From positions 1 through 35,212 of the forward strand of contig PGYR01000030.1 in the NCBI GenBank assembly GCA_002839765.1: a stretch of 35,212 nt of DNA, read 5' to 3'. Below, in pieces: positions 882-11,949 of this stretch. Each line of letters opens with the position of its first letter. Position 1 is the stretch's first letter. Made by a program: the position numbers and the translations under genes. The notes under the pieces were generated by a model. The model was not told where the DNA came from. It worked only from the letters and a program-made list of their open reading frames with translations, and made no database searches. Source of the stretch: Ignavibacteriae bacterium HGW-Ignavibacteriae-4. GTDB taxonomy: Bacteria > Bacteroidota > Ignavibacteria > Kapaibacteriales > UBA2268.

Positions 882-2162
882 ATGTTGGATATTAAACTAA
901 TACGTAATGACCCCGAATATGTAAAAGAGAGCTTGCTTAAGAGAAATAATTCTACTGATATTATAGATGAGTTCCTAAAGATTGATGAAGATAGAAGGAA
1001 AAGACTTCATATGACTGAAGAACTCAAAAGCAAAAGAAACACGGTTTCGGAAGAAATAGGCAAGCTAAAGAAAGATGGTCTTAGTGCTGATAGCCTTATG
1101 CAAGAGATGAAACTTGTTTCTCAGCAAATTAAAGAGTGGGATGATGAAATCCGGATTATTGAGGAAAAGATAAACGGTCTAGTTCTTAAAATCCCCAATA
1201 TCCCACATGAAACAGTACCTATTGGTTCGGATGAAAGTGCTAATAGGCTTGAGCGGCGCTGGGGCACACCAAAACATTTCAGTTTTGTTCCAAAGCCTCA
1301 CTGGGAAATAGGAGAACAGCTCGGTATTCTGGATTTCGAAAGAGCCGCAAAAGTAACAGGAGCAAGGTTTGTGTTTTATAAAGGCTTGGGAGCTCGCATA
1401 GAAAGGGCTTTAATAAATTTCATGCTTGATTTGCATATTAACGAACATGGATATACAGAACTAATCCCGCCCTTTTTAGTAAATAGAGATAGCATGATTG
1501 GAACAGGTCAGCTTCCAAAGTTTGAAGAAGATATGTTTCATCTGGAAAATGTCGATTACTTCTTAATACCTACTGCAGAGGTACCTGTAACTAATATTTA
1601 TCGTGATGAGATTATGAGTGAAGCAGATTTGCCAATCTATCATGTGGCTTACACACCTTGTTTTAGAGCCGAAGCCGGTGCACATGGAAGAGACACGCGG
1701 GGTCTTATTAGGCAACATCAGTTCAATAAGGTAGAAATGGTAAAGTTTGCCCATCCCGCAAATTCCTATGACGAACTTGAAAAGCTAACTGCAAACGCTG
1801 AGAAGGTACTACAGCTACTCGAGATTCCGTATCAAGTGGTTTGTCTCTCGTCGGGGGATATAGGCTTCTCGTCAGCGAAAACTTATGATATTGAAGCATG
1901 GCTTCCATCATTTAATACATACCGTGAGATTTCTTCATGCAGTAATTTCGAAGATTTTCAGGCACGACGTGCTAATATACGTTTTCGCCCAACGGTCAAA
2001 GGCAAACCAGAATTTGTACATACATTAAATGGATCAGGTCTCGCTATTGGCAGGACAACGTCGGCAATTCTTGAGAACTACCAAGATGAAGGCGGGAATG
2101 TAGTGGTTCCCAAAGTCTTACGGCCTTACATGGGGGGAGTAGATCGGATAACAGTAGGTTAA
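882..2162 (+). CDS. serS: Seryl-tRNA synthetase
   Basis: The 426-aa protein has normal bacterial SerRS length. Residues 1-105 form the long antiparallel coiled-coil arm ([18 protein letters not shown], then charged heptads) that reaches the long variable arm of tRNA-Ser. The class II core follows, with motif 2 visible as [21 protein letters not shown] and motif 3 as [18 protein letters not shown]. It charges serine on the three tRNA-Ser species encoded just downstream. The start is ATG after AAGGAGAA with normal spacing. No convincing terminator follows it before the tRNA promoter. Confidence 0.98.
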
Positions 2163-2823: not shown

Positions 2824-3276
2824 ATGATGGAACATGAAGTTTTTATGAGAGAAGCTCTCCTTGAAGCCGAGAAGGCTTTTCAAAAAGGGGAGGTACCCGT
2901 TGGTGCGGTGGTAGTTCTTAAAGGTGAAATAATCGGCCGTGGCCATAATCTAAGAGAAACAACTAGTGATTCAACAGCTCATGCTGAAATAATAGCTCTC
3001 CGTAAAGCAAGTAAAAACCTTAATAACTGGCGCTTATCAGACGCGGTTGTATATGTAACTTTAGAGCCATGTCCGATGTGTGCTGGGGCAATGCTTCAGA
3101 GCCGTATTGATCGAGTAGTATATGGAGCAGATGATTCTAAGGCCGGTTCAGCAGGAACGTTAATTAATATCCTGCAGTTTCCAGGATTTAATCACAGTGT
3201 AAAGATTACAACAGGAATATTGGCTGATGAATGTGGGGCTATTTTGCAAAGATTCTTTAAGGAGCGTCGCAATTAA
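2824..3276 (+). CDS. tadA: tRNA-specific adenosine deaminase TadA
   Basis: The 150-aa protein belongs to the cytidine/deoxycytidylate deaminase fold. The zinc and catalytic motif H53-A-E55 and the second motif P82-C83-P84-M85-C86 are complete. It deaminates A34 of tRNA-Arg(ACG) to inosine, and that tRNA gene is in the same cluster. Adjacent ATG codons at 2824 and 2827 both fit the weak GAGG at 2815-2818, and the second has the better spacing. The flanking N-terminal helix (MEHEVFMREALLEAEKA) is typical of TadA rather than of guanine deaminase. Confidence 0.95.
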   Translation: MMEHEVFMREALLEAEKAFQKGEVPVGAVVVLKGEIIGRGHNLRETTSDSTAHAEIIALRKASKNLNNWRLSDAVVYVTLEPCPMCAGAMLQSRIDRVVYGADDSKAGSAGTLINILQFPGFNHSVKITTGILADECGAILQRFFKERRN

Positions 3277-3328: not shown

Positions 3329-3418
3329 GGAGAGGTGGCCGAGTCCGGTTGAAGGCGCACGACTCGAAATCGTGTGAGGGTTAAACCTCCGTGGGTTCGA
3401 ATCCCACCCTCTCCGCCA
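3329..3418 (+). tRNA. tRNA-Ser(CGA), integration target
   Basis: The acceptor GGAGAGG pairs with CCTCTCC. The anticodon arm CACGA-CTCGAAA-TCGTG gives CGA. A long variable arm with a GGGTTAAACCTCC core and an encoded CCA are present. The gene is intact, but everything 3' of the anticodon loop was probably supplied by the integrative element. A second 3' half with a different variable arm (ACCGCAAGGTTCC) lies at 11884-11939. The hybrid still folds with full acceptor pairing. It reads UCG. Confidence 0.95.
3363..3377 (+). repeat. attL core (15 bp)
   Basis: CTCGAAATCGTGTGA is identical to 11884-11898. It spans the anticodon loop and 3' anticodon stem of tRNA-Ser(CGA), a known class of crossover site for tyrosine integrases. 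Confidence 0.8.
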
Positions 3419-3431
3419 TATTGCAAGGGTT

Positions 3432-3496: not shown

Positions 3497-4645
3497 CTAG
3501 CCTGCTACTTTACTGAATAGGTCATTAATTTTATTAGCGGCATTTTTCTTCATTTCGAAATCAATATGACTATAAATATTTCCAGTCGTACTAATATCGG
3601 AATGACCTAACCATACTTGGACTTCTTTTAAAGATATCCCTAATTTACATAGATAAGATGCGGTACTGTGCCTTAAATCATGAAACCTAATAGGAGATAA
3701 ATTATTCTTGGTAATAATCCTTTTAAAAGCATGGTCTAATGTTGAAATATTTGTAGGTGTTCCGTCTGCATACTTACAAACATAATCATTATTTAGATAT
3801 TTGTTACCGAAAAGTAATTTGTCCTCTGACTGTTTTTTCTTTAAGGTTTTAAGATAATCTGCTACCTTTGGTATAAGTGGTAATGTTCTTAGGCTAGATT
3901 CTGATTTGGGTTTTTTCTCAACATTCGTACAGACTCTTGTTCTTGTGTTACATACTATCAAAGAGCTGTCCTTAAAATTAATATCTCTCCATCTTAATCC
4001 TAATGCCTCTCCACGCCTAAAACCATAATGTACAGTCAAATATACTGCTGATTCAATATTCGAGCCTTTAGTGACCTCTAAGAGCGTTTCTAGTTGTTCA
4101 ATAGAGTAGTATTGAGCGTTATACTTTTCAATTTTAGGCAATGTTACATTAGAAATTGGATTAGTAGCTATTAAGCCCATCTTTACTGCATAATCTAAAC
4201 ATTTTTTAATGTTGGCATGATGCTTCTTGAGAAATTTAGCAGATAAGCCACCTTTACCATCTACTCTTCCGTTTTTATACTTTTCATTAATATAATTTTG
4301 GAGATGAATTGTTCTTAAATCCTGTAGCTTAATACCTTTTTCTTTAAAATAAGGGGCAATATGAGTTTTAACGTTAGTACAATATCCATCAAAAGTAGTA
4401 ACTTCAATCTGATTTTTTATGGTGTTATCTAACCAATCAACAATAAAATCAGAAAACAATGTTTTGCTCGGGTCTATATAAGTCCCATTTTCAAGTTCGG
4501 TTTGAAGCTTCCTTAATACCTTCGTTGCTTCTCCTTTCTTTTCTGATTTTGTGCTAAACCATTTTTGCTGCCATTTACCTTGATTGTCCTTTTGAGCAAT
4601 CACAGCATAATAATACTTCCCTTTTTTATGTAAACTTCCGTTCAT
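3497..4645 (-). CDS. int: Tyrosine-type site-specific integrase
   Basis: The 382-aa protein has the Tn916/phage integrase layout: an N-terminal arm-binding domain (residues 1-60, GSLHKKGKYYYAVI), a SAM-like core-binding domain (about 65-170) and a catalytic domain. The catalytic residues are visible: Arg in YGFRRGEALGLRW, the HDLRH box, His in WLGHSDISTT and the nucleophile Tyr in GNIYSHID. It joins the element to tRNA-Ser(CGA) and probably removes it with the small excisionase encoded upstream. The start ATG follows AGGAAAGGAG in the minus-strand sense. It reads toward the tRNA and ends 78 bp from it. Confidence 0.95.
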   Translation of the reverse strand: MNGSLHKKGKYYYAVIAQKDNQGKWQQKWFSTKSEKKGEATKVLRKLQTELENGTYIDPSKTLFSDFIVDWLDNTIKNQIEVTTFDGYCTNVKTHIAPYFKEKGIKLQDLRTIHLQNYINEKYKNGRVDGKGGLSAKFLKKHHANIKKCLDYAVKMGLIATNPISNVTLPKIEKYNAQYYSIEQLETLLEVTKGSNIESAVYLTVHYGFRRGEALGLRWRDINFKDSSLIVCNTRTRVCTNVEKKPKSESSLRTLPLIPKVADYLKTLKKKQSEDKLLFGNKYLNNDYVCKYADGTPTNISTLDHAFKRIITKNNLSPIRFHDLRHSTASYLCKLGISLKEVQVWLGHSDISTTGNIYSHIDFEMKKNAANKINDLFSKVAG

Positions 4646-4677
4646 ATTTGATATAGCTCCTTTCCTGATTAGAAATT

Positions 4678-4724
4678 AGCTATACCTTCCATTATTCAAG
4701 CTTAGTTTATTAGAAGGTATAGCT
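4678..4724. repeat. 12-bp perfect inverted repeat between xis and int
   Basis: AGCTATACCTTC (4678-4689) and GAAGGTATAGCT (4713-4724) surround a 23-nt centre. A T-run follows on the plus strand only, so as a terminator it would not act on int transcription. It could be a binding site for the excisionase or a control hairpin in the xis-int message. Confidence 0.6.
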
Positions 4725-4737
4725 TTTTGCAATCCTT

Positions 4738-4911
4738 CTAATTTATTTGAACGAAGTCTATTACAGATTTCTTGGGGATTTTATATACTTTACCGATAGT
4801 GATTGCCTTTATTTCTCCATTAGATAATAGTTTATAAGCTGTATTTTTACCTATTTTAAGCATGTGGCATAATTCATTTACATTTAATACATCATCATAA
4901 TTTTCAAACAT
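4738..4911 (-). CDS. xis: Excisionase-type HTH protein, 57 aa
   Basis: The minus strand encodes a 57-aa protein starting MFENYDDVLNVNELCHMLKI and continuing with GKNTAYKLLSNGEIKAITIGKVYKIPK in shorter stretches. This is the MerR-like/HTH_17 excisionase fold, with a helix-turn-helix and a basic wing. A strong GGAGGAG precedes the ATG. It lies just upstream of int in the same direction, the standard xis-int order of Tn916-like and phage modules. The expected role is directing integrase toward excision. Confidence 0.85.
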   Translation of the reverse strand: MFENYDDVLNVNELCHMLKIGKNTAYKLLSNGEIKAITIGKVYKIPKKSVIDFVQIN

Positions 4912-4941
4912 ATAGTAAATCTTATCTCCTCCTTCGTATTT

Positions 4942-5904
4942 TTAAACCGCTTTCTTAAATATAGAATTCAAAGGGTTCATTAAATTATAGTTATTCTGAA
5001 TAGGGTTTATATTAAGATTCTGTATTTGCTTTATTTGATAATATGAGTAAACATTATCAACATTTTCTAATTGCTGCACTTCTTTAATTTTTTGCATTAA
5101 CGAATCCCTATTTTTGGAAGTATTTAGTATTCTACTTATAATATTGTTCGAATAATAATCGCCTATATAAAATATTGGGCGTAGATATTCATTGAAAAAG
5201 TAATCTCTCATATACCAATAATTATCAATAGTTCTTTTTAGTCCATACCTTTTTTCATAATTATTGAGAAGCCCTGTTAGTATTTGTAATTCATATCTTA
5301 ATAAATTTATATTGCATTCTTCTATATATCCTCTACTAACCGCTTCTGCTTCTTTGTCATAAGTATTAACTCGATAATTATTTGCTTTATAATAAACTGT
5401 AGCTGGGTTTTCTTCAGAGTCATGATAATTCCTTTTAGAAGCTGAATATCTTTTCATCCTAGCCTTACTCAATATTGTTAATAAGCTCTTTTTTTCTTGT
5501 TGATTCTTACACTTAAAATCAAACTTATAATCTATTCTGTTTAAAGTTTCGCTTTTTAGAAATTCATGATGATAAAATATCCTTTCGTGAATAATTGAAT
5601 AATATTTTTTCTTAAATGTTGTTAGGTCATCAAATTCAATGGTTGGCTTGTTAAGCAATATTGGAGCGTTAACTATTATAAATAAATAATGCATTGGGTT
5701 ATTTCTTATTGGGTATTGAATTTTTAATCCCTCTTTTACTAGATTGACTTGGAAGCCTCTAAAAATATTGTTGTTTGCTAATATTGAAAATATCACATTT
5801 TCTTGTAATTTATTGTATTGATTTTTTCTGCACTCATGTTCTAAATATCCGATAAAGAAATGATCTACTGGAATAATATATCTTAATTCTATTGTGTGAA
5901 TTAT
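4942..5904 (-). CDS. Phage/plasmid-type replication initiation protein with apparent AUA start
   Basis: The reading frame has no ATG, GTG or TTG near its ribosome site; the first GTG (5796) lies 100 bases inside. A clear AAGGAGG (5913-5919) is followed 8 nt later by ATA at 5904-5902, after in-frame stops. From there the product reads MIHTIELRYIIPVDHFFIG, which matches from memory the usual N-terminus (MIDTIxLRY) of the gene II/X phage/plasmid Rep family. Later motifs fit too: RIDYKFDF, VNTYDKEAEA and LLRYELQILTG, the last resembling the family's LRxExR segment. The length is 320 aa from ATA. The expected role is nicking the element's origin for rolling-circle replication after excision. The family call is moderate and the start codon is inferred. 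Confidence 0.65.
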   Translation of the reverse strand: MIHTIELRYIIPVDHFFIGYLEHECRKNQYNKLQENVIFSILANNNIFRGFQVNLVKEGLKIQYPIRNNPMHYLFIIVNAPILLNKPTIEFDDLTTFKKKYYSIIHERIFYHHEFLKSETLNRIDYKFDFKCKNQQEKKSLLTILSKARMKRYSASKRNYHDSEENPATVYYKANNYRVNTYDKEAEAVSRGYIEECNINLLRYELQILTGLLNNYEKRYGLKRTIDNYWYMRDYFFNEYLRPIFYIGDYYSNNIISRILNTSKNRDSLMQKIKEVQQLENVDNVYSYYQIKQIQNLNINPIQNNYNLMNPLNSIFKKAV

Positions 5905-6010
5905 ATTAGTATCCTCCTTATATTTTTATTAATATTTACCTGATAGTTACTGACATAGGGTTTAATGGATAATTCTTCTATAATGTAGTTACAAGTATTT
6001 TTATGAAAAC

Positions 6011-6058
6011 AAAAAAGTAACTCAAAACAGCCTATATGTATATAGGCTCCTGGTTACT
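6011..6058 (-). terminator. Attenuator-like terminator in the rep leader
   Basis: On the minus strand the outer stem AGTAAC/GTTACT encloses a second stem AGCCTATA/TATAGGCT and is followed by TTTTTT. It sits directly after the stop codon of the mini-ORF at 6059-6085 and about 110 bp before the rep start. Ribosome position on the mini-ORF could therefore affect it. Confidence 0.75.
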
Positions 6059-6085
6059 TTACGAAGAATCAAATATTTTTTTCAT
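6059..6085 (-). CDS. Leader mini-ORF, MKKIFDSS
   Basis: Eight codons follow a strong GTAGGAGGAACATC-ATG ribosome site. The stop codon abuts the 5' arm of the terminator at 6011-6058. The ribosome site lies in the 3' arm of a hairpin (6095-6135). The layout is that of an attenuation leader; no function for the peptide itself is claimed. Confidence 0.5.
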   Translation of the reverse strand: MKKIFDSS

Positions 6086-6094
6086 GATGTTCCT

Positions 6095-6135
6095 CCTACA
6101 TGTTGTTTTGACGTGTCGAGAAACAACAAAGTAGG
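6095..6135 (-). promoter_or_regulatory. Hairpin that hides the mini-ORF ribosome site
   Basis: In plus-strand coordinates CCTAC (6095-6099) and TGTTGTTT (6101-6108) pair with AAACAACA (6121-6128) and GTAGG (6131-6135). On the minus-strand RNA the 3' arm contains the AGGAGG of the mini-ORF at 6059-6085. The 12-nt loop carries CTCGACAC, complementary to GTGTCGAG inside the upstream leader ORF (6207-6214). Two alternative pairings are thus possible. Confidence 0.6.
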
Positions 6136-6169
6136 AAGTTACTTATCAATTTAATTTAGGGAATTTTAC

Positions 6170-6220
6170 TTACCTTAATCCAATGGTTTTAATAGGCGAG
6201 CTGCTCCTCGACACAGCCAT
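6170..6220 (-). CDS. Leader peptide ORF, 16 aa
   Basis: It encodes MAVSRSSSPIKTIGLR after AAGGGG at good spacing. Its third to fifth codons overlap the sequence that can pair with the loop of the hairpin at 6095-6135. Translation of this ORF would change the fold downstream, as in translational attenuators. No homologue is recognised. Confidence 0.5.
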   Translation of the reverse strand: MAVSRSSSPIKTIGLR

Positions 6221-6305
6221 GATACATCCCCTTACCTTTCTATTAATATAATCTTATCGATATAAGCCGAGGAAAATATGCTTACATCAAATTATAATTA
6301 ACTTT

Positions 6306-6334
6306 ATTATACCATTATTTCCAGATCCTGTCTA
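6306..6334 (-). promoter_or_regulatory. Minus-strand promoter for the leader and rep-xis-int
   Basis: On the minus strand: -35 TAGACA (6334-6329), a 17-bp spacer and -10 TATAAT (6311-6306). Transcription would start near 6299, giving a leader of about 395 nt before rep. Between 6335 and 6466 nothing gene-like is visible except a weak 7-bp inverted repeat (CTTCAAT 6425-6431, ATTGAAG 6454-6460). Confidence 0.75.
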
Positions 6335-6466
6335 GCTCTATTTATTAACCTTATGATGTATTTCGTATCAACTAACATGTGGATGAGGCACTAAGTGCAA
6401 AGGGTACTGCGAGAATCGAAAAGACTTCAATTTTTGTTTTCTACCCCCTACCCATTGAAGGCGGAC

Positions 6467-6493
6467 AAAAAAAGAAGAGCTATTTGCCCTTCT
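6467..6493 (-). terminator. Terminator of the resolvase gene
   Basis: On the minus strand AGAAGGGC-aaata-GCTCTTCT is followed by a run of seven T. The hairpin overlaps the resolvase stop codon (6494-6492). Confidence 0.88.
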
Positions 6494-7073
6494 AACCTTC
6501 ATTCTTTGCCTTCCGCTTCCTCATTTCTCTTGTTAAAGTTGCTTTACTAATCTTAGTCATTTTCTCAACTTGTGTATAAGAATAATCTTTCAGCAAATCC
6601 AACGCCATATCTATCTGCGTTTGAGTAAATTGCTTTGGTCTACCTTCCTTGAATCCTGGCTTAGTCTTTGCAATTGCTTTACCTTCTTGAGTACGTTCCA
6701 CAATCATCTCCCTTTCGAATTGAGCAAAAGCAAAAAAAATTGTTCTAATCAAAGTACTTGAAGGGGTATTGTCCAGAATTCCCATATTCAGTATATAAAC
6801 CTTTATTCCCTTATTAATCAATTCTTCAACTATTGTAGAACCCTGAATCGTAGTTCGTGCAAATCTATCTAATTTCGTTACAACTAGCATATCCCCTTCT
6901 TGAAGTTTATTTATTAACTCTTTAAACTTCGGTCTATCAGTTTTAGTACCTGTATAGCTTTCTTCAATTATCTCTTGGCATCCGCTACTTTTTAATAAAC
7001 CTACTTGACTTTCTAAAGAATTACCATTTGTCTCCTGTCCTTTTGTTGATACTCTTGCATACCCATAAATCAT
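6492..7073 (-). CDS. Serine recombinase (resolvase/invertase family)
   Basis: The 193-aa protein begins [14 protein letters not shown], with catalytic Ser9 in the YARVS motif. The family residues follow in [11 protein letters not shown] (the D and R of the active site) and [13 protein letters not shown] (the E helix). The short C-terminal HTH ([20 protein letters not shown], then [18 protein letters not shown]) marks a Tn3/Hin-type resolvase, not a large serine integrase. Since the element also encodes a rolling-circle Rep, a likely role is resolving dimers or maintaining the excised circle. A remnant of an unrelated transposon is the alternative. Res-like repeats lie immediately upstream. 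Confidence 0.93.
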
Positions 7074-7096
7074 AATTCATAACTCCTTTTAGCAAT

Positions 7097-7186
7097 ATAG
7101 TATTGACTATAAGTTTTGACTACGTTGTATGGCTTAATAATACATCTTCTAGAAATCATAGTCAATACTTTTGAGTTATGACTACG
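7097..7186. repeat. Res-like site with inverted and direct repeats
   Basis: ATAGTATTGACTAT (7097-7110) recurs inverted as ATAGTCAATACT (7158-7169). TTTTGACTACG (7114-7124) recurs directly as GTTATGACTACG (7175-7186). The array lies between the divergent resolvase and DUF262 genes, where resolvase binding sites are normally found, and it overlaps the resolvase promoter. Confidence 0.65.
7137..7165 (-). promoter_or_regulatory. Resolvase promoter overlapping the res-like site
   Basis: On the minus strand: TTGACT (7165-7160), a 17-bp spacer and TATTAT (7142-7137). The -35 box is part of the inverted repeat at 7158-7169, so resolvase binding could repress its own gene. Confidence 0.65.
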
Positions 7187-7339
7187 CATAAATACAATTT
7201 ATGTATTTGTGATAGAAAAATGAGTTAGTTTACAAATTTCGACAATATTCCCCTTACAAAAATGATAATAATGGTATATTTTTATAACAAGAGTTTGATT
7301 GCTAGTAATAATAAATTTCCAAATGGAGGCTGCCGACCA

Positions 7340-9895
7340 ATGGGGTTATATTTTTTAAAGGATGATGAAATAAGAGAAATCTTCAAATCCCATATAAAAA
7401 TCGAATCAAAAGTTGTTTCTATAGAGTCTCTTTTTGCTAATGTAAGACGTATGAATAATACGGTGTATGATCCTTACTATCAAAGAAATTATGTATGGGA
7501 AAAAGATAAGGCAACTTATTTCATAGAAAGCATCTTGCTGGGTACTGAGATACCTCCACTCGTATTCTTTAATACTGGTAGCATAATCGAAGTAATTGAC
7601 GGTAGACAGAGATTTGAAACAATAAAGAAGTTTATCAATAACGAATTTCACTTAACAGCTAAAGGTTTAAGTTCTATAAAAGGCTTTGCAAAAAAGAGTT
7701 TTAATGATCTATCACAAGAAATACAATCTACATTATGGGATACTACTTTGAGAATTATTGAATTTGGTGTTATTAATGAACCTAGACTTGATGAAAGAAA
7801 AGAGGACTTAATTAAGAAAGAGATTTTCAGAAGGTATAATTCAGGCATTACACCTTTGAAAAATTTCGAAATCGAAAAGGCTATATATATCGATGATAAT
7901 CTTAGTAGCTTTATGAAAAAACAATTAAAGAATTCGATGGTGTTTAAAAATATTTTAGAATTATTTTTTGTAGATAGGGATATGGAATTAATTGACAAAA
8001 CAGTCACCCTAGAAAAGGTAATGCAAAAATTGAGATTATTTTTGGTATTGCCTTTAATACCAATTAATTATTATGCTACAACTAACAAGAGAAAAGATCT
8101 CATTGCCAGGCTATATGAAAACATGTCAAATTATAATGATGATGTAGATAAATTTTACTTAAATTTTATCAATAAAATTAATATCTTGGTTGATATTAGG
8201 AATATTATTATAAAGAATAAATTAAACCATAACAGACTGGTTTTTGAGTGTCTATTTTGGGCAATCTCAATTATTGAAAAAGAAGGTATTAATGTTAGTA
8301 AAATCAAAGGAGAGACTTATCTAAGATTAACCAAATGTATTTCTAATAATATTGATAAATATGAAATGACGAATAGTCATTTCTATAAGGCGTTGATTGA
8401 AAGATTTAGTTTTACTGCTAAATTCTTTGAGAATGAGTATAAAATCAACTTAGACCTATATTTAAGTAATTATGATAAATTCAAGCCTGACTTAAAGGAA
8501 ATATTTAATGAAGATGATACTTCAAAACTAATGATTTATGACACATTAAGATTAAATAGACCTGATGCGTCAACCACAACTATAGAAGACATATGTAGGC
8601 AAATGCTTAAACGAAGATTTCTATTAAGACCATCGTATCAACGAGGAGAGATAATAAATAAAGCTAAATCGTCCTCGATAATTGAAAGTATTCTTTTGGA
8701 TATAAAAATACCTCCAATATTTATTTATAAAAGAGAAAGTGGTATCTCCGAAGTTGTAGACGGTCAACAAAGATTATTATCTATATTAGGTTTTATCGGA
8801 CAGGAGTTTATAGATGAAAATGGAAATCGTGTTAAGACTGAGAAAAACAATTTTTCACTATCTAAACTGACTATATTAAGTGAATATAATGGAATGAAAT
8901 ATCAGGATTTATCAGACCAAAAAAAAGACAAAATATTAGATTTTAACTTATCTATAGTAATTATTGATGAAAAGTTGAATCCACACTTTGATCCTATTGA
9001 TTTGTTTATTAGATTAAATAATAAACCATATCCTATAAAAGAAAACTCGTTCGAGATGTGGAACTCATATATAGATAAAGAAATTGTAACAACAATTAAA
9101 GAGAATACACGTAAACACTCTAAATGGTTTTATTCAAAGGTTAATAGCAAGAGAATGGAAGACGAAGAACTATATGCATCACTTGTTTATTTAGAATACA
9201 AGATTAAAGATATTAAAAATGAAGGGTTTGATATTGAAGATATAATAGATGTTTATGTGAGAAGTAATAGAATAAATGCACGGATTAAGCATAAAACCGA
9301 AATTACAAAGACACTTAATGAAGTAACAAATGAAGAGAGCACAAAATTAGAGTTTTTAAAGTGCATAAAAATCATTGAAACTTTTATAAAAAAAGTCAGG
9401 ACTATATTAATAGATAAGGATACAGAAAATGCAGACCAGTATTTAAGGGAAGAATTAGATAGGATGTTCACTCAAAACAGAAGGACATTTCAAAATTTTT
9501 ATACACTGTGGTATATATTATGTTATCTTAATTATGAAATGATAAAATATAATCGAATTAAAATAAAAGGAGACATAACTACGTTGTTTCAATTGATGAA
9601 AAATGTACCAGGAAATGATAATAAAAAGTTAGATGAGTTCTTATCATTAATTAAAGACCTTTGGTCAACGTATAGAATACAAGATAGAAACGTTATACTG
9701 TCAGAACAAGAAAAAGCAGAGCTGATTAAAATACAAAAAAACATTTGTCCAATTTGTAATAGCCCATTATTTTTCGGTGACGATATCCATATAGATCACA
9801 TTAAACCATTGGCTATTGGAGGTCGTGATTCAATAGTGAATTTACAAGCAACTCATAAAGATTGCAATCAAAAGAAAAACACGAAATATATATAA
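7340..9895 (+). CDS. Tandem DUF262 - HNH endonuclease protein, putative anti-phage nuclease
   Basis: From the ATG at 7340 (GGAGG at 7325-7329, 10-nt spacing) the protein has 851 aa. An earlier ATG at 7262 lacks a ribosome site. Two DUF262 domains are visible. The first is at about 25-110, with YYQRNYVWEKDKA and the signature DGRQR at 87-91. The second is at about 405-500, with SYQRGEI and DGQQR at 474-478. Both keep the motif needed for NTP hydrolysis in the DUF262 (ParB/Srx-like) fold. Long helical segments follow each. The C-terminus is a canonical zinc-supported HNH: CPIC (803-806), D819-H820, N834 and H839-xx-C842. DUF262 is known from the GmrS half of GmrSD type IV restriction and from SspE and BrxU, where it controls a nuclease. 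Those use DUF1524, whereas this protein carries a plain HNH. A defence role is inferred. The gene is strongly AT-rich and monocistronic. Confidence 0.85.
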   Translation: MGLYFLKDDEIREIFKSHIKIESKVVSIESLFANVRRMNNTVYDPYYQRNYVWEKDKATYFIESILLGTEIPPLVFFNTGSIIEVIDGRQRFETIKKFINNEFHLTAKGLSSIKGFAKKSFNDLSQEIQSTLWDTTLRIIEFGVINEPRLDERKEDLIKKEIFRRYNSGITPLKNFEIEKAIYIDDNLSSFMKKQLKNSMVFKNILELFFVDRDMELIDKTVTLEKVMQKLRLFLVLPLIPINYYATTNKRKDLIARLYENMSNYNDDVDKFYLNFINKINILVDIRNIIIKNKLNHNRLVFECLFWAISIIEKEGINVSKIKGETYLRLTKCISNNIDKYEMTNSHFYKALIERFSFTAKFFENEYKINLDLYLSNYDKFKPDLKEIFNEDDTSKLMIYDTLRLNRPDASTTTIEDICRQMLKRRFLLRPSYQRGEIINKAKSSSIIESILLDIKIPPIFIYKRESGISEVVDGQQRLLSILGFIGQEFIDENGNRVKTEKNNFSLSKLTILSEYNGMKYQDLSDQKKDKILDFNLSIVIIDEKLNPHFDPIDLFIRLNNKPYPIKENSFEMWNSYIDKEIVTTIKENTRKHSKWFYSKVNSKRMEDEELYASLVYLEYKIKDIKNEGFDIEDIIDVYVRSNRINARIKHKTEITKTLNEVTNEESTKLEFLKCIKIIETFIKKVRTILIDKDTENADQYLREELDRMFTQNRRTFQNFYTLWYILCYLNYEMIKYNRIKIKGDITTLFQLMKNVPGNDNKKLDEFLSLIKDLWSTYRIQDRNVILSEQEKAELIKIQKNICPICNSPLFFGDDIHIDHIKPLAIGGRDSIVNLQATHKDCNQKKNTKYI

Positions 9896-10599: not shown

Positions 10600-11388
10600 A
10601 TGACATTATATGAAATCTTAGAAGTTAGTCCAAATGCTTCAAAGGAAGTAGTTAAGATGGCTTATGAAACCTTAGCTAAAAAATATCAACTAGATAATCA
10701 GCCAAACGAATACAAACAACAAGCGGAGAGTATTCTGAAACTATTAAATGAGGCTTATTACACCCTTATAGATGATGAAAAACGGAAAAGGTATGATAAG
10801 CTAAGTACTTTTAATCAAAACGATGATATTTTAAATGACTATCAGCAAGAAATAAAAGATAATATACAACAAGATGATAATATACAACAAGATGATAATA
10901 TACAACAAGATGATAATATACAACAAGATGATAATATACTAACATCTAACAAAAAAAACGAGACGGAATTCTATTTTGGTTTTGGCGGCTGGTTATATTT
11001 AGTAGGGCTTCACTTAATATTAGGCTTAATTTCCAAACTTAAACTTGTTGAGGAGACAATACCTTTGCTTCATGAATCTACTTTTGCCCATCTATCTACA
11101 ATTATTTACACTGAACTTATAATGAATATATTTATCATTTTCTATATTATATTTGCACTTTATTTAATGTATAAATGCAAAAAGATGTTTCGTAATGTAA
11201 TGATTGGGTTCTACTTATTTAATCTATCAATAATATTAATTGATTATTTCATTGTTGCAGTTTTCTCGGATTTTGTAATAGATAAGCAACAAGCATTTGA
11301 AAATATTATTATTCCTGTTATCGCTTGTGCTATTTGGATACCGTATATGATTAAATCAAAAAGAATAAGGAATACATATATTCTTTAA
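10600..11388 (+). CDS. J-domain-like / DUF2569 membrane protein
   Basis: The protein has 262 aa. Residues 1-68 look like a J domain (LYEILEVSPNASKEVVKMAY, then LNEAYYTLIDDEKRKRYDKL), but the HPD tripeptide that stimulates DnaK is replaced by QLD in KKYQLDNQP. It is therefore unlikely to act as a normal DnaK cochaperone. Residues 87-112 are perfect DNIQQD repeats. The rest has four probable membrane helices (about 129-147, 171-191, 199-221 and 233-251) with the DUF2569 features GGWLYLVGL at the start and WIPYMIKSKRIRNTY at the end. The start follows GGGGGGGTGAG. Its role is unknown. Its place beside a putative defence nuclease makes a membrane-linked role in the element conceivable, but that is inference. 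Confidence 0.75.
   Translation: MTLYEILEVSPNASKEVVKMAYETLAKKYQLDNQPNEYKQQAESILKLLNEAYYTLIDDEKRKRYDKLSTFNQNDDILNDYQQEIKDNIQQDDNIQQDDNIQQDDNIQQDDNILTSNKKNETEFYFGFGGWLYLVGLHLILGLISKLKLVEETIPLLHESTFAHLSTIIYTELIMNIFIIFYIIFALYLMYKCKKMFRNVMIGFYLFNLSIILIDYFIVAVFSDFVIDKQQAFENIIIPVIACAIWIPYMIKSKRIRNTYIL
10861..10938 (+). repeat. Perfect 18-bp tandem repeat, 4.3 copies
   Basis: AATATACAACAAGATGAT is repeated four times without any change (10861-10932), with a partial fifth copy. It is in frame and encodes NIQQDD, linking the J-like domain to the membrane part. Perfect identity at DNA level points to recent slippage. Confidence 0.95.
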
Positions 11389-11883: not shown

Positions 11884-11939
11884 CTCGAAATCGTGTGAAC
11901 CGCAAGGTTCCGTGGGTTCGAATCCCACTCTCTCCGCCA
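11884..11939 (+). repeat. attR: displaced 3' half of tRNA-Ser(CGA)
   Basis: It begins with the 15-base core CTCGAAATCGTGTGA. A variable arm ACCGCAAGGTTCC, a T-arm GTGGGTTCGAATCCCAC, an acceptor strand TCTCTCC and GCCA follow. There is no 5' half. Joined to the 5' half at 3329-3377 it would make a complete tRNA-Ser(CGA) with one G-U in the acceptor, so it is most likely the original chromosomal 3' end. Confidence 0.85.
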
Positions 11940-11949
11940 TTGAAAGAGT

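Follow-up and report, generated by a model that had tools for sequence, protein, structure and literature searches.

The window analysed here, a stretch of 35,212 nucleotides, carries a gene for a protein in which two DUF262 domains, each with its complete set of motifs, are followed in the same chain by a single HNH nuclease domain, and this gene is the cargo of a mobile element integrated at a tRNA gene. Throughout the family to which the protein belongs the two DUF262 domains are retained, and the HNH domain is exchanged, in almost every member that lacks it, for an adjacent partner gene of one of four kinds. Our preferred reading, which we regard as reasonably probable, is that of a GmrSD-like anti-phage enzyme in one chain, in which the tandem NTPase module detects infection and controls a replaceable effector.

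Domain architecture of the window protein

The reading frame is open already from position 7262, which would give 877 aa; this start was dropped in favour of the ATG at 7340, which has a ribosome-binding site (GGAGG, ten bases 5' of the ATG), and an 851-aa product from this ATG is likely. A scan for promoters and terminators returned sites in numbers about equal to those in shuffled sequences. The order of elements along the protein is DUF262, helical region, DUF262, helical region and HNH, as follows.

7340..9895, + strand: gene of the tandem-DUF262 and HNH protein, 851 aa (open reading frame, Pfam, GGAGG at 7325-7329)
7397..7939, + strand: first DUF262/GmrSD_N domain, about residues 20-200, with QR at 48-49 and FxxxN at 163-167 (Pfam, alignment, model)
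7598..7612, + strand: first putative NTPase motif, DGRQR, residues 87-91 (D in 72, G in 71, Q in 72 and R in 73 of 73 members)
7940..8554, + strand: helical region 1, residues 201-405, less conserved (model, conservation)
8567..9109, + strand: second DUF262/GmrSD_N domain, about residues 410-590, with QR at 434-435 and FxxxN at 556-560 (Pfam, alignment, model)
8759..8773, + strand: second putative NTPase motif, DGQQR, residues 474-478 (73 of 73 members)
9110..9673, + strand: helical region 2, residues 591-778, about where relatives without HNH stop (relatives, model)
9746..9883, + strand: HNH nuclease domain, residues 803-848, with Cys 803, 806 and 842 and with D819, H820, N834, H839 and N843 (Pfam, alignment, model)

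In Pfam, GmrSD_N (PF03235, DUF262) matches in two stretches with 110.6 bits over the whole protein, and the HNH family PF01844 matches once with 43.9 bits, above its curated cut-off of 21.4; the catalytic D-H-N-H-N pattern of the latter is present, and its D819-H820 pair is encoded at 9794-9799. These matches and the motif positions bear out the architecture read in the earlier note, namely two DUF262 domains, each with an intact DGxQR motif (residues 87-91 and 474-478), ahead of an HNH domain. The two halves of the protein are recognisable duplicates of one another (BLASTP E = 1e-12, 29% over 172 columns). An RNA-guided nuclease was also considered and rejected, the matches to Cas9d and IscB covering the HNH part alone and lying far under their cut-offs.

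The structural model of the window protein has a mean pLDDT of 84.7 and a pTM of 0.49, so that its domains are usable and the arrangement of the two halves is not predicted. No match was found at E<=0.01 in a profile search of PDB structures or at E<=0.001 with Foldseek against the PDB, where BrxU was the top entry at E=0.0024. Alignment with VIA-align paired the second half with SspE (Z 8.4, rmsd 3.5, 141 residues aligned), the C terminus with the HNH domain of Cas9 (Z 8.6, rmsd 2.7, 64 aligned), and the first half with the ParB-like protein PadC (Z 6.8, rmsd 3.0, 95 aligned), all at Z values near those obtained with unrelated models. The fold matches lean on the sequence matches.

Conservation of the two DUF262 sites

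The scan of genome contigs, from which the best 80 of 96 matching stretches were used, gave 79 loci, and viral contigs gave a further 6, of which 2 (L091 and L092) are good relatives and both end without HNH. From these we assembled a family of 73 distinct full-length proteins, the window protein included; open reading frames shorter than 740 aa, four identical loci (L020, L033, L056 and L047) and the weak viral loci L093-L096 were set aside, and alignment A2 comprises 71 rows, L006 and L030 being absent from it. The search for homologues with the same order of both DUF262 domains, proposed in the earlier note, shows this order in 73/73, far beyond chance. Members come from Bacillota, Bacteroidota, Cyanobacteriota, Chloroflexota, Pseudomonadota, archaea and other groups. 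Counting the window's own genome, a relative is present in 6 of 395 genomes of a phylum sample and in 6 of 391 genomes of a class sample. Matches occur in 90 of 72,556 plasmid records, one of which (Priestia) extends over at least 80% of the query, and in 19 of 50,697 phage records, where at most 27% of the query is covered, at the first DUF262. A DNA search of E. coli genomes with one AbiC-type core gene (L088) returned no match.

The QR, DGxQR and FxxxN motifs of both DUF262 domains are kept in 71-73 of the 73 members. Within the first half, Q48, R49, D87 and Q90 are each present in 72, G88 in 71, and R91, F163 and N167 in 73; within the second, Q434, R435, D474, G475, Q477, R478 and N560 are present in all 73 and F556 in 71. 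One row is gapped at most first-half positions, and we take it to be that of L014, of which the part following the break in the first motif was used. That locus has a stop at 8255-8257, inside the first DGxQR motif, and is open in the remainder; the stop may reflect a pseudogene, recoding or a sequencing error. Mean conservation of the majority residue is 0.65 and 0.67 in the two DUF262 domains, compared with 0.40 and 0.45 in the helical regions. Conservation of both motifs among homologues had been named beforehand as one part of the support for the proposal, and consistent decay of one DUF262 as evidence against it; such decay was looked for and not found, both domains being intact across the 73 members.

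These data bear on a reading of the protein as a conventional GmrSD-type restriction enzyme in which the duplicated DUF262 is redundant and only one NTPase site matters. The recognisable duplication of the halves would fit such an enzyme, as would the Priestia plasmid relative (L011), which retains the second half alone. Both sites, however, remain intact in 71-73 of 73 members, and the middle residue of the DGxQR motif differs in a fixed way between them, position 89 being R in 70/73 and position 476 being Q in 73/73. Because of this fixed difference the two sites look, as judged from the alignment, specialised rather than redundant, and we consider a redundant duplicate improbable.

Several members depart from the common layout. 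The Priestia gene (5977-7680 of its locus) encodes the second DUF262 and the HNH domain and has no first half, which may mean that the first half is dispensable or that this gene has decayed. Three loci, L020 (identical to L007), L031 and L036, have DUF4379 treble-clef zinc fingers fused N-terminally before the two DUF262 domains, seen as three stretches by Pfam in L020 and L036 and read by eye in L031. At L036 a gene that appears by eye to be SIR2-like (3822-5228) lies 16 bp downstream of the DUF4379-DUF262-DUF262-HNH gene; it has no PHROG match.

Exchange of the HNH domain for partner genes

The HNH domain is carried by 35 of the 73 members, that is, 34 with an aligned D-H pair together with L030, in which HNH lies in a shifted frame; the other 38 end before it. 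Among the 34 aligned HNH forms, D819, H820, N834 and N843 are invariant and H839 is present in 33. The three zinc cysteines (803, 806 and 842) are kept together in only 16, so that the predicted catalytic residues outlast the putative zinc site.

Beside the core gene of 35 of the 38 HNH-less members lies a partner gene, and for the remaining 3 (L069, L071 and L074) the contig ends upstream. Clustering of the neighbours at 72 loci gives three partner families, an AbiC-like membrane protein (17 loci), a PIN_8 protein (9) and a protein with a methyltransferase-like fold (7); a further 2 loci have a Schlafen AlbA_2 protein. Each kind is found always on one side of the core gene, which it overlaps or from which it is separated by no more than 33 bp. 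The AbiC-like gene is just upstream, at position -1 in 16 of its loci and in two pieces at L053; the PIN_8 gene is directly downstream; the methyltransferase-fold gene is directly upstream; and the Schlafen AlbA_2 gene (PF04326) is upstream. Pfam recognised putAbiC (PF16872) in 2 of the 17 and PIN_8 (PF18476) in 2 of the 9, in each case both of those scanned, and SLFN_AlbA_2 in 2 of 2; the other members of the partner groups were assigned by similarity to those scanned. No Pfam match was obtained for the 3 of 7 methyltransferase-fold proteins scanned, and a model of this family (mean pLDDT 58) resembles SAM methyltransferases (best Z 14.2, rmsd 2.9, 158 residues).

Profile searches for the four kinds of partner detected none at any of 34 HNH loci, 27 of which have at least 1 kb on both sides, and there is none on the short flank of the 35th (L006). 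Mutual exclusion of HNH and partner gives a Fisher p of 2e-17, a value that ignores kinship and uses groups defined after looking. At L083, from a Nanoarchaeota bin, an HNH form has a Schlafen AlbA_2 domain fused behind the HNH (at about 3944-4477).

A quick tree built on the core that all members share shows 5 changes of effector state, against a possible minimum of 4. At least 3 changes of the HNH state are required even when only the well-supported branches are counted, and placing the HNH forms in one clade is rejected (p-AU 2.5e-6). Of the members truncated by a contig end, two are placed by the tree with forms of known partner: L069 groups with the AbiC forms, L071 with the methyltransferase forms. 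Because HNH occurs on both sides of the tree, which is unrooted, we infer a direction of change: the distribution suggests that HNH was ancestral and was replaced several times.

Comparison with known systems

As judged by profile matches, the nearest known defence protein is NsnA of PADLOC. It is the best PADLOC model for the window protein (191 bits, two matched stretches) and for all 7 other members scanned (189-208 bits, two stretches each). In 4 of these 7 the best stretch falls in the first half and spans almost all of the 385 positions of the model; in the remaining 3, and in the window protein, it falls in the second half. In a plasmid locus, consecutive genes give matches to NsnA, NsnB and NsnC, a system which we take to be the one named Menshen. 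With hhalign, the family aligns to NsnA of the nsnABC locus in the first half (34% over 185 columns, E=2e-18). The NsnA of that locus has one DUF262 and stands beside NsnB, which is related to OLD/GajA-type ATPases, and NsnC, whereas the window protein joins two DUF262 domains in one chain with HNH in cis. Of the components of Menshen, the window has the NsnA-like DUF262 protein; neither NsnB nor NsnC was detected with PADLOC at E<=0.1 among 5 window neighbour proteins and 6 partner proteins of relatives.

Two pairs of proteins from Vibrio cholerae provide a parallel in composition. TgvA/TgvB and GrwA/GrwB each have a DUF262, with DUF1524 on one protein per pair; both genes are needed for protection (PMC11411939, PMC12137116), and mutation of the DUF262 in either Grw protein abolished it (PMC12137116). 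Like these pairs, the window protein combines one nuclease with two DUF262 domains, neither of which has lost its motifs. In those pairs the domains are divided between separate adjacent genes and the nuclease is of the DUF1524 type, in contrast to the one open frame and PF01844 HNH of the window; relatives of the window protein, unlike TgvAB and GrwAB, also have other partners. The earlier note had started from the premise that known DUF262 defence proteins carry one DUF262 with a DUF1524 nuclease, which holds per chain for GmrSD, BrxU and SspE and fails at the level of the system for TgvAB and GrwAB, in which two DUF262 domains are paired with one nuclease. Its suggestion that a built-in pair of NTPase domains controls one nuclease is borne out in part: it fits both motif sets and the TgvAB/GrwAB precedent, and it leaves out that the module also occurs apart from HNH, about half of the members lacking that domain, nearly always with a partner gene in its place.

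The Vibrio systems also bear on a reading in which the module silences its effector and frees it on infection to act against host RNA, membrane or chromosome, in an abortive-infection or toxin-like manner. The AbiC-like and PIN_8 partners of the HNH-less relatives are not typical restriction effectors and would suit such a scheme, as would the descriptions of GrwAB cultures that later lysed, with non-dividing filamentous cells (PMC12137116), and of TgvAB cultures inhibited at a high dose of some phages (PMC11411939). The HNH domain of the window, on the other hand, resembles those of Cas9 and restriction enzymes, and we think abortive infection rather unlikely.

Membership of the GmrSD-type Type IV enzymes is consistent with the motifs: like GmrSD, BrxU and SspE, the window protein has DUF262 with QR, DGxQR and FxxxN, as these are defined in PMC12137116. 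By fold it resembles BrxU, the top Foldseek entry, and SspE, which is among the top VIA matches. GmrSD, BrxU and SspE differ from it in having one DUF262 per chain and DUF1524 (PMC12137116, PMC10952713), as opposed to PF01844 HNH here; a C-terminal DUF1524 (PF07510) is absent from the window protein in Pfam at E<=0.1, where PF01844, HNH_5 and HNH_4 are found instead. Further systems with DUF262 and without DUF1524 are listed in a review (PMC10952713). Protein A of PD-T4-2 gives a DUF262-type match that is weaker than that of NsnA (54 bits), and its 363-position model has room for a single DUF262-type domain. Two DUF262 domains in one chain were not found described in those parts of the open-licence literature that were available, including PMC4619093, PMC12137116, PMC11411939 and PMC10952713.

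The mobile element and its genomic context

The gene is carried as cargo by an 8.5-kb element that sits at a tRNA-Ser gene and has the following further features.

3329..3418, + strand: tRNA-Ser(CGA), the integration target
3363..3419, + strand: left attachment repeat, at the 3' end of tRNA-Ser(CGA)
3497..4645, - strand: tyrosine integrase of the element, beside the left repeat (PF00589, 97.8 bits)
4942..5796, - strand: element gene with sub-threshold Pfam matches alone, one of them to phage replication protein PF05144 (E=0.083)
6492..7073, - strand: small serine recombinase/invertase-like protein of the element
10600..11388, + strand: J-domain and DUF2569 protein, the second cargo gene (Pfam)
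11884..11940, + strand: right attachment repeat, 84% identical to the left copy

The attachment repeats are 57 bp long and lie 8521 bp apart from start to start, and the GC content of the element is 28.5%, against 38.5% in the rest of the window. The repeats of the tRNA-Ser 3' end, the integrase and the low GC content confirm the earlier note's statement that the gene is cargo of a small mobile element. The product of 4942..5796 has no PHROG match, and an 18-bp tandem repeat lies at 10861-10931, within the J-domain/DUF2569 cargo gene.

An empty integration site was not found by DNA search in 3 other genomes of the genus, where the DNA query matched, outside the window's own assembly, a single 41-base stretch in 1 of the 3. 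The reason is probably that the contig is foreign to the assembly under which it is filed. Besides serS and tadA of the window (882-2159 and 2824-3273), the assembly contains a second serS (contig C49) and a second tadA (contig C14). The serS of C49 is 93-96% identical to those of three genomes of the same genus, compared with about 50% for that of the window. The window contig is probably a contaminant, and relatives of the assembly would then tell little about its host.

Residence on an element, next to a serine recombinase, could mean that the protein serves the element itself, for example by keeping out competing elements or regulating excision, and not phage defence. The recombinase, however, is in no neighbour family that recurs in at least 3 of the 72 loci, and many of the Pfam families listed near HNH forms are ordinary chromosomal ones, mostly metabolic or transport; we give a function for the element little credence. 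In an uncontrolled scan with PADLOC and Pfam there was no clear defence-island signal among 101 neighbours of the HNH loci (149 were eligible, 139 were within the size limit and 101 were scanned). PADLOC matches near HNH forms are scattered over 63 families, and of the 25 listed nearly all occur in one member each.

Proposed mechanism and implications

In the single-chain anti-phage enzyme that we favour, the two non-equivalent DUF262 domains, of ParB fold, would form an intramolecular pair together with the helical regions, and this pair would recognise some property of the incoming phage DNA, most likely a modification. Nucleotide binding or hydrolysis by the pair would then release the C-terminal HNH domain, which would cut or nick DNA, and in sister lineages without HNH the same tandem-DUF262 module would gate the neighbouring putative effector. 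By analogy with SspE and BrxU, it is likely that DUF262 senses DNA modification and that nucleotide turnover controls the nuclease.

A more general proposal, on which we are evenly divided, is that tandem DUF262 constitutes a platform for sensing infection and gating, with at least five interchangeable outputs swapped about 5 times over its evolution, the sensor remaining unchanged and the NTPase gating each output directly. The outputs would be HNH in cis and the AbiC-like, PIN_8, methyltransferase-fold and Schlafen AlbA_2 proteins in trans. Such a plug-in immune hub, built from a Type IV restriction sensor, would follow a logic comparable to that of CBASS or Thoeris. The exclusive swap of HNH for four kinds of neighbouring gene suggests that the sensor, and not the cutter, is the conserved unit of this family, and the HNH-less loci are candidate two-gene defence cassettes.
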